DNA from: Pseudonocardia sp. SCN 73-27
GTDB lineage: Bacteria > Actinomycetota > Actinomycetes > Mycobacteriales > Pseudonocardiaceae
DNA length: 64,000 nucleotides
Direction: 5' to 3'
Assembly: GCA_001725415.1 (NCBI GenBank)
Contig: MEGH01000017.1
Coordinates: 1 to 64,000, forward strand
The notes beneath the pieces were generated by a model. The model saw only the letters and a list, made by a program, of their open reading frames with translations, did no database searches and was not told the DNA's origin. The translations under genes were made by a program, and so were the position numbers. Positions 48,966-53,341 of the stretch are shown one piece after another (the first letter of the stretch is position 1; each line of letters opens with the position of its first letter).

Positions 48966-51008
48966 ATGGACTTCTACTCCGCGTACCGGCACGGGTTCCT
49001 TCGCGTCGCCGCCGCCACGTTGCGGACCGTGATCGCCGATCCGGCGGCGAACGCCAGGTCGGTGCTGGAGACGGCACGGGACCTGCACGACGACGGTGTC
49101 GGCATGGTCGTGTTCCCGGAGCTGACGCTGTCGGGCTACTCGATCGAGGACGTGCTTCTGCAGGACACGCTGCTCGACGCGGTCGAGGAGGCGCTGGCCG
49201 AGGTGGTGGCGGGGTCGGCGGACCTGTTGCCGGTGCTCGTCGTCGGCGCACCGCTGCGGTACCGGCACCGCATCCACAACTGCGCGGTCGTCGTGCACCG
49301 GGGACGGATCCTGGGGGTGGCGCCGAAGTCGTACCTGCCGACGTACCGGGAGTTCTACGAGCGCCGCCAGGTCGCGCCGGGCGACGACGTGCGCGGCACG
49401 CTGCGTCTGGCCGGGGCGGACGTGCCGTTCGGGCCGGACCTGTTGTTCGAGGCGGCGGACGTGCCGGGGTTCGTGCTGCACGTCGAGGTGTGCGAGGACA
49501 TGTGGGTCCCGATCCCGCCGAGCGCTGAGGCGGCGCTCGCGGGGGCGACGGTGCTGGCGAACCTGTCGGGCAGCCCGATCACGGTGGGCCGGGCGGACGA
49601 CCGGACGTTGCTGTGCCGGTCGGCGTCGGCACGTTGCCTGGCGGCCTACGTGTACGCGGCGGCGGGCGAGGGCGAGTCGAGCACCGACCTGGCCTGGGAC
49701 GGCCAGACGATGATCCACGAGAACGGGGTGCTGCTCGCGGAGAGCGCGCGGTTCCCGAGGGGGCCGCGGCAGTCGGTGGCCGACGTCGACCTCGACCTGC
49801 TGCGGGCCGAGCGGCTGCGGATGGGCACGTTCGACGACAACCGTCGCCACCACGCGGAGCGGGTGGAGGCGTTCCGGCGCATCGAGTTCCGTCTCGACCC
49901 GCCTGGACGCGACATCGGGCTGCGCCGCGAGATCGAGCGGTTCCCGTTCGTGCCGGCCGACCCGGCGCGGCTGGAGCAGGACTGCTACGAGGCCTACAAC
50001 ATCCAGGTCTCGGGCCTGGAGCAGCGGCTGCGCGCGATCGGGCAGCCGAGGATCGTCATCGGCGTCTCGGGCGGGCTCGACTCGACGCATGCGTTGATCG
50101 TCGCGGCCCGGGCGATGGACCGGGAGGGCCGTCCGCGCAGCGACATCCTGGCGTTCACGCTCCCCGGGTTCGCGACGGGTGAGCGCACGAAGAACAACGC
50201 GACGCGGCTGGCCGAGGCGCTGGGTGTCACGTTCGAGACGATCGACATCACCGAGACGGCGCGGCTGATGCTGCGCAACCTGGAGCACCCGTTCTCGGCG
50301 GGTGACCCGGTGTACGACGTGACGTTCGAGAACGTCCAGGCCGGTCTGCGCACCGACTACCTGTTCCGCGCGGCGAACCAGCGGGGCGGGATCGTGCTCG
50401 GCACGGGCGACCTGTCGGAGCTGGCGCTGGGGTGGTCGACCTACGGTGTCGGCGACCAGATGTCGCACTACAACGTCAACGGCGGGGTCCCGAAGACGTT
50501 GATCCAGCACCTGATCCGCTGGGGCGTGTCGTCGAAGCAGTTCGACGACGAGGTCGGCGCGGTGCTGACCGACGTGCTGGACACCGAGATCACGCCCGAG
50601 CTGGTCCCGGTCGACGACGAGCGTCCGGTGCAGAGCAGCGAGGCGACGGTGGGCCCGTACTCGTTGCAGGACTTCACGTTGTTCCACGTGCTGCGGTGGG
50701 GGATGCGGCCGTCGAAGATCGCGTTCCTGGCGTGGCACGCGTGGCACGACGTCGAGGCGGGCGACTGGCCGACCGGGTTCCCCGACGACGACCGGGTCGC
50801 GTTCGCGATGGTCGACGTCCGGCGCTGGCTCGAGGTGTTCGCGCGGCGGTACTTCTCGTTCGCGCAGTTCAAGCGGTCGGCGTTGCCCAACGGGCCGAAG
50901 GTGTCGGCGGGTGGGTCGTTGTCGCCGAGGGGCGACTGGCGGGCCCCGTCGGACATGTCGGCGCGCATCTGGCTCGACGAGATCCGCCGCGAGGTCCCGG
51001 AGTCCTGA
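48966..51008 (+). CDS. nadE: Glutamine-dependent NAD+ synthetase
   Basis: 680 residues, the size of the mycobacterial enzyme. N-terminal glutaminase (nitrilase fold) with triad Glu52 (FPELTLSGY), Lys121 (PKSYLPTYREFYE) and Cys176 (VEVCEDMW), the same numbering as the M. tuberculosis enzyme. C-terminal synthetase with the PP-loop SGGLDSTHALIVA and GTGDLSELALGWSTYG. It amidates nicotinic acid adenine dinucleotide using glutamine. ATG start; a hairpin terminator follows 60 bases after the stop. Confidence 0.97.
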   Translation: MDFYSAYRHGFLRVAAATLRTVIADPAANARSVLETARDLHDDGVGMVVFPELTLSGYSIEDVLLQDTLLDAVEEALAEVVAGSADLLPVLVVGAPLRYRHRIHNCAVVVHRGRILGVAPKSYLPTYREFYERRQVAPGDDVRGTLRLAGADVPFGPDLLFEAADVPGFVLHVEVCEDMWVPIPPSAEAALAGATVLANLSGSPITVGRADDRTLLCRSASARCLAAYVYAAAGEGESSTDLAWDGQTMIHENGVLLAESARFPRGPRQSVADVDLDLLRAERLRMGTFDDNRRHHAERVEAFRRIEFRLDPPGRDIGLRREIERFPFVPADPARLEQDCYEAYNIQVSGLEQRLRAIGQPRIVIGVSGGLDSTHALIVAARAMDREGRPRSDILAFTLPGFATGERTKNNATRLAEALGVTFETIDITETARLMLRNLEHPFSAGDPVYDVTFENVQAGLRTDYLFRAANQRGGIVLGTGDLSELALGWSTYGVGDQMSHYNVNGGVPKTLIQHLIRWGVSSKQFDDEVGAVLTDVLDTEITPELVPVDDERPVQSSEATVGPYSLQDFTLFHVLRWGMRPSKIAFLAWHAWHDVEAGDWPTGFPDDDRVAFAMVDVRRWLEVFARRYFSFAQFKRSALPNGPKVSAGGSLSPRGDWRAPSDMSARIWLDEIRREVPES

Positions 51009-51068
51009 CCGGCCGGCCCGCCCGGCTCGGACCACGTGGGTCGACCGCTGAGCCTCGGGCGCAGCAAC

Positions 51069-51106
51069 GCCGCCGGTCGGGACCATCGAAGGTCCGGACC
51101 GGCGGC
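51069..51106. terminator. Bidirectional hairpin between nadE and the His-rich gene
   Basis: GCCGCCGGTC (51069-51078) pairs with 51097-51106, and GGACC (51080-51084) pairs with GGTCC (51091-51095) inside it. It can terminate both convergent genes. Confidence 0.85.
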
Positions 51107-51117
51107 GCCGTCGTGGG

Positions 51118-51387
51118 TCAGTGGCTGCCGTGGCCGCCGTACCCGCCGGAGCTGTCCCAGCTGCTCTCGTCGCGGTGCGGGTGGCAGTGCTCCTCGTGCT
51201 GGTAGGACTTGTCCTCCCAGTGGTGGTGCGACGACTTGTCGTCCCAGCTGTCGTTGCAGCTGGTGTCCTTCCACTCGTCGTGGCCCTTGTGGTGCTGGCC
51301 GCCGTACTGCTCGTCGTACTTGTGCTTCTCGTGCTCGTTGTAGTTCGAGTCGTGCTTGTGCTTGTCGTGGTGCGAGCTCTTGAACAT
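51118..51387 (-). CDS. Small His/Asp/Ser/Lys-rich protein, probably metal-binding and disordered
   Basis: 89 residues from ATG at 51387, six bases after GAGG. About 18 His (one in five), many Asp/Glu/Lys/Ser, four Trp and two Cys; segments such as SSHHDKHKHDSN, GQHHKGHDEWKD and HEEHCHPHRDESS. No signal peptide, membrane span or family match that I recognise. Virtually every codon ends in G or C, the pattern of a true gene in this genome rather than of a shadow frame, and it has its own start signal and terminator hairpin. Zn, Ni, Cu or Co buffering is a reasonable guess; desiccation or surface roles are alternatives. Confidence 0.78.
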   Translation of the reverse strand: MFKSSHHDKHKHDSNYNEHEKHKYDEQYGGQHHKGHDEWKDTSCNDSWDDKSSHHHWEDKSYQHEEHCHPHRDESSWDSSGGYGGHGSH

Positions 51388-51491
51388 GCCGACCTCGTCT
51401 CCTGGCGGTGCTGCGGCTGCCGTGCGCGGATCGTGCTCGTTCCGTATTCGGGGAAGTCGCGATCGGCGGCCCTGCCGTTACGAGGAGCGGG

Positions 51492-52058
51492 CTACGCGGG
51501 CTCGCCCCGGCGTCGGCGCAGTCCGGCCAGGTCACCCGCGGCGAGCGCCCGCCAGAACCGCAGCGTCGCGTACTCGACCTCCAGGCCCAGCTCGAGGGTG
51601 ATCAGCCGTGGGTTGTCGGTGGGCTCCGGGCCGAAGCGGGCGACCATTCCCTCGTAGAGCGCGATCCGCTCCTCGTGGCGCTCGATCTGGCCCTTGGCCA
51701 GCCGGGTGACGTCCTCGGGGCTGCCGACCTCGTTGAAGAACAGCTTCAGCTCGGCCGGGTCGCGCATCTGGAAATGACTGTCGCTGGGCTCGGCGATCCA
51801 GCTCTCCAGCGCTTCGGTGCCTGCCGCGGTGATCGAGTACGTCTTGCGGCGGCGGCCCTCGGTCTCGGTCTCGCACGTGAGCAGACCGGCGGCGGTCAGC
51901 CGCTCGGGCTCGGAGTAGAGCTGCGCGTGCGGGAAGTGCCAGAAGTAGCCGACGGAATGTCCCACCGCACGCTTGAGGTCGTAGGGCGTCGACGGGCCCC
52001 GCAGCGAGATCATGCCCAGGACGACATAGGACGTGGGCGACAGGCGAACGGCGGGCAC
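51492..52058 (-). CDS. PadR-family transcriptional regulator
   Basis: 188 residues, GTG at 52058. Winged helix: YVVLGMISLRGPSTPYDLKRAV, HAQLYSEPERLTAAGLLTCE and GRRRKTYSITAAGTEALESWI; then the C-terminal Vir-like helical dimerisation domain. PadR proteins respond to phenolics, drugs or stress. It lies upstream, in the same orientation, of the His-rich gene (104-base gap), so control of that gene is possible but unproven. Confidence 0.92.
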   Translation of the reverse strand: MPAVRLSPTSYVVLGMISLRGPSTPYDLKRAVGHSVGYFWHFPHAQLYSEPERLTAAGLLTCETETEGRRRKTYSITAAGTEALESWIAEPSDSHFQMRDPAELKLFFNEVGSPEDVTRLAKGQIERHEERIALYEGMVARFGPEPTDNPRLITLELGLEVEYATLRFWRALAAGDLAGLRRRRGEPA

Positions 52059-52141
52059 GACCGTAGGTTATCCGGGCCGTACCGTCCGAGGAGGACGATT
52101 GCGGCGCGTCGCACACGTCCGGCCAACGGCTCCCGTTCATC

Positions 52142-53341
52142 TCATGTGTCCGGCAACGTCGGCATCTGGATGCCGGGGGAGTGCCCGAGCCGCGCGGCCC
52201 GCGTCACCGCCTCCCCGCCGAACCGCTCCCGCAGAGCGTCGAGCGTCGCGTCGAGCTCCGGGCCGGAGTCGCGCGCGTACGGCAGCGTCAGCTGGACCGC
52301 ACCGTCGCGGTCGAGGTTGGCCAGCGACAGCCCGACCAGCGTGATCCCGCGTTCCCGGATCAGCGGCATCGCGTCGGCCAGGAGCCGGCGCGCCGCGGTC
52401 AGGATCGTCGGCGTGTGGGCCGTCGCGCTCGCCAGCGTGTGCGAGCGCGTGGCCCGGGTGAAATCGCCGAAGCGCAGCCGCAGTACCACCGTGCGGCACA
52501 CCCGTTCGGCCCCGCGCAGCCGCTTGCCCAGCCGGTCGACGATGCCGGCGACGATCGCGTCGAGCTCCTCGGCCGACCGCTCCCGGCGGCCCAGCGCACG
52601 CTGCGACCCGATCGACCGGCGCCGCCTGCCCGTCTCGACCCGGCGCGGGGCGAGCCCGTGGGCCAGCGCGTGCAGGTGCCGCCCCGACGCCCGCCCCAGC
52701 AACGAGACCAGCGCCGGCTCACCCAGGTCGGCCACGTCGGCCACCGTGCGCAGGCCCATCGCGTGCAGCTTCGCCGACGTCACCTTCCCGACACCCCACA
52801 GCCGCTCCACCGGCAGCGGGTGCAGGAACGCGAGCTCGGCCTCGGGCGGCACCCGCAGCAGTCCGTCGGGCTTCGCGACGCCGCTGGCCACTTTGGCCAG
52901 GAACTTGGTGCGCGCCACCCCGACCGTGATGGGCAGCCCGACCTCCTCGGCGACCTGGCGGCGCAGCCCGGCCGCGATGTCCATCGGGGCGCCCGCGATC
53001 CGCCACAGGCCGGCCACCTCGAGGAACGCCTCGTCGATCGAGATGCCCTCGACCAGCGGCGTGGTGTCGCGGAACACCGCGAACACCGCCTTCGACGCCG
53101 CCGAGTACGCGTGCATCCGCGGCGGCACGACGATCGCGCCCGGGCACAGCGCGAGCGCCTGCCGCCCGCCCATCGCCGTGCGCACCCCGGCGGCCTTCGC
53201 CTCGTAGCTGCACGCCAGCACGACCCCGCCGCCGACGATGACCGGACGGCCACGCAGCGACGGGTCGTCGCGCTGCTCGACGGAGGCGAAGAACGCGTCG
53301 AGATCGGCGTGCAGGATCGTGGCGTCTCCGGACACGAACAT
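52142..53341 (-). CDS. dinB: DNA polymerase IV (Y family)
   Basis: 399 residues from ATG at 53341; GTG at 53335 is two codons in. Catalytic Asp13 in ILHADLDAFFASVE, Asp103-Glu104 in SIDEAFLEV, the YEAKAAGVRTAM finger motif, HhH LWGVGKVTSAKLHAMGL and a little-finger domain. It makes error-prone lesion bypass past damaged bases. The start codon is embedded in a LexA-type operator, so an SOS-induced, probably leaderless, transcript is likely. Confidence 0.94.
   Translation of the reverse strand: MFVSGDATILHADLDAFFASVEQRDDPSLRGRPVIVGGGVVLACSYEAKAAGVRTAMGGRQALALCPGAIVVPPRMHAYSAASKAVFAVFRDTTPLVEGISIDEAFLEVAGLWRIAGAPMDIAAGLRRQVAEEVGLPITVGVARTKFLAKVASGVAKPDGLLRVPPEAELAFLHPLPVERLWGVGKVTSAKLHAMGLRTVADVADLGEPALVSLLGRASGRHLHALAHGLAPRRVETGRRRRSIGSQRALGRRERSAEELDAIVAGIVDRLGKRLRGAERVCRTVVLRLRFGDFTRATRSHTLASATAHTPTILTAARRLLADAMPLIRERGITLVGLSLANLDRDGAVQLTLPYARDSGPELDATLDALRERFGGEAVTRAARLGHSPGIQMPTLPDT

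Follow-up and report, generated by a model that had tools for sequence, protein, structure and literature searches.

The window, i.e., the whole 64,000-nucleotide stretch of DNA that was analyzed, comes from the 6.95-Mb genome (99 contigs) of Pseudonocardia sp. SCN 73-27. It contains a small gene for a histidine-rich protein, located downstream of the genes for a PadR-family regulator and a DinB-type DNA polymerase and facing a convergently oriented NAD synthase gene. The features of this locus are as follows.

48966..51008, plus strand: nadE-type NAD synthase gene, the convergent neighbor (Pfam NAD_synthase and CN_hydrolase)
51066..51109, no strand assigned: strong hairpin between the convergent genes, a possible terminator without a U-tract (folding of 51041-51121)
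51118..51387, minus strand: gene for the His-rich orphan protein, 89 amino acids plus stop (ORF and translation, homologues, frame-specific protection)
51175..51258, minus strand: best-conserved core of this protein, residues 44-71, C-x10-HH-x7-H-x3-C-x2-H (motif in all four homologues, invariant columns)
51388..51440, minus strand: conserved untranslated leader with the ribosome-binding region (alignment; fold z 0.62, not above chance)
51455..51482, minus strand: promoter-like element CGTAACG-N16-CGACT, ECF-sigma-like (boxes at 51476-51482 and 51455-51459; in four of four genomes)
51492..52058, minus strand: PadR-family regulator gene, the upstream neighbor (Pfam PF03551, E 1.1e-10; PF10400, E 1.6e-07)
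52142..53341, minus strand: dinB-type DNA polymerase IV gene, upstream of padR (Pfam IMS, E 9.7e-48)

The ORF at 51118 to 51387 had been proposed in an earlier, sequence-only reading of this DNA, which left its strand unstated; it was recovered exactly, on the minus strand. That reading described a chain with one His in five residues, mixed with Asp, Ser, Lys, and Trp and encoded with almost exclusive G or C in the third codon positions, and the counts bear this out: the protein contains 18 His among its 89 residues (20.2%), 13 Ser, 11 Asp, 9 Lys, 8 Glu, 8 Gly, 5 Tyr, 4 Trp, and 2 Cys, with not a single Ala, Val, Leu, or Ile (GRAVY of -2.26), and each of the 89 sense codons has C or G in its third position. 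An open frame is by itself unsurprising here, because the frame stays open in 402 of 2,000 dinucleotide shuffles of the region; 18 His residues were reached in none of the 2,000.

Homologues are encoded in three other Pseudonocardia genomes, at 82, 78, and 73% identity to the window protein. The sequence-only reading had made the case for this gene depend on conservation of its frame in relatives, and the frame is conserved, with alignment gaps of whole codons and the same start and stop in all four genomes. The naive dN/dS values of 0.70 to 1.38 are hard to read because of the two-fold codons and a GC3 near 1, and this measure was therefore replaced by a test in which the observed substitutions were re-placed at random, keeping the kinds of change, in 1,000 trials per genome pair. 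In the annotated frame, the similarity-weighted protection beat 1,000 of 1,000 random placements in each of the six genome pairs; in every other frame, it was absent from all six. By the plain count of changed codons, the closest pair did not reach significance (P = 0.088), and frame 1 of the opposite strand had fewer changed codons than random in five pairs out of six (P below 0.05), although it carries 2 or 3 stops and shows no protection by the similarity-weighted measure. Since the protection is specific to one frame, the His-rich ORF can be considered a selected protein and, as judged from the alignments, is a real protein-coding gene kept by selection.

The alternative, an ORF that arose by chance in GC-rich intergenic DNA and has no function as a protein, appears very improbable. 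The shortness of the ORF, the one-fifth of shuffles that remain open, a dN/dS not far from 1, and the restriction to a few species would all suit such a frame; they have to be weighed against the frame-specific protection in every pair, the start codon, ribosome-binding region, and in-frame gaps common to the four genomes, the lack of any shuffle with as many His residues, and the same extreme composition in all four homologues, each of which contains 15 to 18 His residues (17 to 20%) and no Ala, Val, Leu, or Ile. A 178-codon open frame at 51121-51657 on the plus strand overlaps the gene; it is read as a by-product of the codon use of the His-rich gene, because the substitution test protects it less than the His-rich frame.

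The His-rich protein is very narrowly distributed, being limited to a few Pseudonocardia species. A profile built from the four sequences detected it in 4 of 62 genomes of the genus, in the identical four among 390 genomes at the family level, and in a single genome, the source of the window, among 394 at the class level. An exact-word scan of 84,980 species added no new carrier: its two relatives, in the records of Pseudonocardia sulfidoxydans NBRC 16205 and Pseudonocardia sp. N23, belong to this set of four. HMMER applies a correction for compositional bias, and the relative with 73% identity (genome G017) escaped the word scan, so that more diverged relatives could be missed by these searches. 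Profile and single-sequence searches found no relative outside Pseudonocardia. A DNA pattern for the SCNDSW segment had four other matches in the 394 class genomes, none of them in a His-rich frame. The sequence-only reading recognized no family, and the libraries agree: the protein has no match in Pfam or NCBIfam at E values up to 1, among PDB sequences up to an E of 5, in PHROGs, or in the plasmid, phage, and viral-contig records. As judged by titles and the starts of abstracts, no literature on a Pseudonocardia histidine-rich protein of this kind was found; as judged by titles, neither was any that links PadR, an ECF sigma factor, and a small histidine-rich protein.

The gene order dinB, padR, His-rich gene, all in one direction, is the same in the four carrier genomes. 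The earlier placement of the gene behind a PadR regulator is thus correct for every carrier; of the homologues looked for beside padR or nadE, all four have padR next to them and three have nadE, which in G017 lies about 4 kb away. A search for padR homologues gave 46 matches in 39 of the 62 genomes, and 30 loci were inspected: four contain the His-rich gene, and 26 have neither a comparable His-rich ORF nor dinB or nadE neighbors (one of them, L036, contains a single unrelated, less biased ORF). Similarly, nadE matches were found in 54 of the 62 genomes, and only 3 of the 30 loci inspected have padR and the His-rich gene within 1.5 kb; the remaining 27, the one in G017 included, do not. The link between the His-rich gene and padR is clade specific, because the other padR and nadE loci inspected lack the combination. 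The PadR homologue itself (66 to 76% identity; L017-L042) is widespread in Pseudonocardia, and the neighbors at eight other printed padR loci often look, by eye, like acyl-CoA synthetase and molybdopterin-oxidoreductase genes. One nadE match, at G051:C1:55629-56296, comes in two overlapping pieces, which suggests a frame break or a sequencing error.

Of the suggested relationship with PadR, the conserved neighborhood stands within this small clade, and a regulatory role of PadR is unproven, given the 26 padR loci that lack such a partner. PadR operator sites can be degenerate, and no inverted repeat of at least 7 bases was detected in the upstream gaps at 51380-51500 and 52040-52150. The constant position of padR immediately upstream also raises the idea that the protein is a short regulator or adaptor that binds a partner through its core; this partner might be PadR itself or the product of a PadR-controlled gene. 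Its most strongly conserved segment, DTSCNDSW-x-DKS-x2-HHW-x-DKSY, does resemble a linear motif. However, 26 of the 42 further padR matches were seen to lack a His-rich neighbor, dinB is kept in order in the same four genomes, so that adjacency may reflect shared descent only, and the His-rich gene is preceded by its own promoter-like element. We consider this explanation distinctly unlikely.

Conservation within the protein is uneven. Only 14 of the 38 columns covering residues 1 to 38 are invariant among the four homologues, as opposed to 33 of 51 in residues 39 to 89, so that the best-kept part is the C-terminal core rather than the His-rich N terminus. The core, with its C-x10-HH-x7-H-x3-C-x2-H spacing, overlaps three W-x-D-x-S units that start at residues 39, 48, and 57 with a nine-residue period in all four proteins, and the chain ends in a GGYGG tail. 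Both Cys residues (two in each homologue) and all four Trp residues are invariant, as are 4 of 5 Tyr and 8 of 18 His. Across the four homologues, the Gly content is 7.1 to 9.3% and the GRAVY is -2.24 to -2.38. The chain is probably disordered, as had been supposed earlier: AlphaFold2, in what is a weak test with 3 sequences in the alignment, gave a mean pLDDT of 49.1 and a pTM of 0.14, with a single low-confidence helix at residues 17 to 28 in a prediction that is unconfident throughout. There is no signal peptide or hydrophobic segment, the best 15-residue window having a mean hydropathy of -1.23 (-1.23 to -1.81 in the four homologues), and reading the frame back beyond the ATG reveals no hydrophobic stretch either (L045 translation). 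Because a hydrophobic segment is absent, a cytoplasmic location is likely on sequence grounds, which weakens the surface role that had been proposed, although the promoter-like element is common to exported proteins.

The gap between padR and the ATG contains CGTAACG-N16-CGA[AC][CT], with identical spacing in all four genomes against a background of diverged sequence; the leader of about 50 nt that comes next is well conserved. Directly 5' of the ATG lies the GAG-rich GAGACGAGGTCG, identical in the four genomes, which would serve as the ribosome-binding site that the sequence-only reading had assigned to this gene. A leader motif, GGAGACGAGGTCGNCATG, was considered as a repeated element; it is exact at the His-rich gene and uninformative, because it has more than 200 matches per genome at up to 3 mismatches. 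No sigma-70 promoter was found at the His-rich gene and no Rfam match in 50900-52200. Of the terminator that had been claimed downstream, a strong hairpin is present, the 81-nt stretch at 51041-51121 folding at -53.9 kcal/mol (z of -5.67); it lacks a U-tract, and a scan near the gene detected no U-tract terminator.

The promoter pattern was chosen after the His-rich gene had been inspected. In the four genomes, it has 42 matches, compared with 5 for the reversed pattern, a weak control because the reversed pattern contains no CpG; hence, spacing was used as a test. For the two boxes in the window genome and G017, 14 of 80 entries have a spacing of 16 (P of about 1e-5), compared with a mean of 3.3 entries for each of the other 20 spacings in the range of 6 to 26; without the His-rich gene, 13 entries remain (P = 4e-5). 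A tally of 16 sites at this spacing (P = 5e-7) includes three matches from the pattern search, which favors spacers of 15 to 17. Given the overlap between entries and the relatedness of the two genomes, these P values are guides. Five of the 42 matches in the four genomes represent one repeated sequence, presumably 23S rRNA. Across the genus, CGTAACG-N16-CGAAC occurs in at least 25 of 62 genomes, with 42 matches listed versus 3 for the reversed pattern; 12 of those listed fall in the four genomes of the clade.

The start of an export-signal-like ORF is found just downstream of 6 of the 16 sites with a 16-base spacer and of 4 of 58 other sites (Fisher test, 0.005), and a lipobox is found downstream of 4 of 16 and 0 of 58 sites, respectively (0.0016), in a comparison that was set up after some of the targets had been inspected. 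The 16 sites include two inside one coding sequence, which we take to be uvrC-like, two at the His-rich gene, and three with no clear downstream gene. Targets that could be named from Pfam are PASTA proteins in the window genome and G017, a calcineurin-like phosphoesterase in the window genome, an Excalibur lipoprotein in G023, and a DUF732 lipoprotein in G017. Sites located before small exported proteins (PASTA, Excalibur, DUF732, and unnamed lipoproteins) are G000:C13:20081, C38:38139, and C45:69958; G023:C18:66732; and, in G017, C1:546502, 6172943, C5:8735, and C5:53632. The candidate element, enriched before exported proteins in the two genomes tallied, probably marks an ECF-sigma-type regulon, and this promoter class may possibly define an undescribed regulon of small exported proteins.

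The likeliest reading, to which we give somewhat less than an even chance, is that the protein is disordered, stays in the cytoplasm, and binds metal, with a single Cys/His site. It draws on the core motif preserved in all four homologues and on their 15 to 18 His residues. The variable N-terminal half, rich in His, Asp, Glu, and Lys, could loosely soak up divalent transition metals, and the invariant C44, H55-H56, H64, C68, and H71, set between the Trp-Asp-Lys-Ser repeats, could make up a single site of higher affinity or an element that binds a partner. We infer that the gene is expressed and depends on a sigma factor: transcription would start at its own ECF-sigma-type promoter in the padR-proximal gap, together with that of small exported envelope proteins, and production of the protein would accompany envelope stress or development. 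The metal-buffering role suggested earlier remains plausible in view of the invariant core; against it stand the lack of any recognized metal gene nearby (the neighbors examined included no identified gene for metal transport, a metalloenzyme, or a metalloregulator), the lack of an inverted-repeat operator, and a His content of 17 to 20%, well below that of Hpn (28 of 60). His may not even be the functional residue, since its 8 invariant positions of 18 are proportionally fewer than those of Trp and Cys.

The main rival, which takes in the desiccation role suggested earlier, is a hydrophilin-like or condensate-forming protectant against drying, osmotic, or envelope stress, in which the disordered chain carries aromatic stickers and His supplies pH-dependent charge instead of binding metal. 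This rival is somewhat unlikely, albeit matched by a GRAVY of -2.2 to -2.4, 7 to 9% Gly, the missing aliphatic residues, and the predicted disorder, as well as by the invariant Trp (4 of 4) and Tyr (4 of 5), the nine-residue W-x-D-x-S period, the GGYGG tail, and a promoter type common to envelope proteins. Its difficulties are that an invariant Cys pair and fixed Cys/His spacing would be superfluous in a generic protectant and that 58 of 62 genomes lack the gene in a genus whose members live in similar ways. A broader picture, which we regard as unlikely, would unite these elements: an orphan family of Cys/His-core proteins free of Ala, Val, Leu, and Ile, born in this clade, would supply the cytoplasmic component of an undescribed ECF-sigma regulon whose other members are small lipoproteins of the envelope (PASTA, Excalibur, DUF732); the family would buffer or sense metal or form condensates under envelope stress.

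For a genome of ∼70% G+C, a selected protein without Ala, Val, Leu, and Ile has an extreme composition, and confinement to one clade makes it a good case for studying the origin of new genes and of new proteins that bind metal or act as protectants. Provided that the promoter element is real, it connects this cytoplasmic orphan with a group of envelope lipoproteins and offers a direct handle on what turns the His-rich gene on.

Among the known systems, metallothioneins are characterized by Cys-rich clusters and can be ruled out by the 2 Cys among 89 residues, a number that is the same in each homologue. Hydrophilins are defined by a Gly content above 6% and high hydrophilicity, are induced by hyperosmosis, and protect enzymes on drying. 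All four homologues fall within this composition (7.1 to 9.3% Gly; GRAVY of -2.24 to -2.38), and the protein shares with hydrophilins and LEA-like protectants its strong hydrophilicity, Gly above 6%, and predicted disorder; it differs from them in its wealth of His, Trp, and Cys and in its invariant Cys/His core. The sigma-BldN promoter has the sequence CGTAAC-N16-CGTTGA; the -35 box at the His-rich gene resembles that of sigma-BldN, whereas the second box here is CGA[AC][CT], one base further on. In Streptomyces, sigma-BldN is described, in the parts of the sources consulted, as an ECF sigma factor whose regulon includes small envelope proteins, the chaplins and rodlins (PMC4255298, PMC4125116). 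An exported surface protein of this kind does not fit the sequence, since chaplins and rodlins have a signal peptide and a hydrophobic domain and the His-rich protein has neither.

Hpn of Helicobacter pylori, listed here together with Hpn-2, serves as the model of a small His-rich metal protein; the Hpn type is characterized by Ni(II) binding and protection from Ni overload. According to the consulted part of the source, small His-rich cytoplasmic proteins of the Hpn kind bind Ni, Zn, Co, and Cu; Hpn, with about half of its residues His (28 of 60), arranged in stretches, and two Cys pairs, binds Ni and other divalent metals and is induced through NikR (PMC4671568). Like Hpn and Hpn-2, the Pseudonocardia protein is small, His-rich, devoid of an export signal, and lineage restricted. 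Membership in the Hpn type was rejected, since composition and Cys arrangement differ and no library match exists, a separation that rests on composition and on that description. In place of NikR induction, an ECF-type promoter is suggested, with no metalloregulator site found at the His-rich gene. Compared with Hpn as portrayed there, the Pseudonocardia protein has 18 His of 89 residues, two single Cys, Trp-Asp-Lys-Ser repeats, and a Gly-Tyr-Gly tail (PMC4671568).
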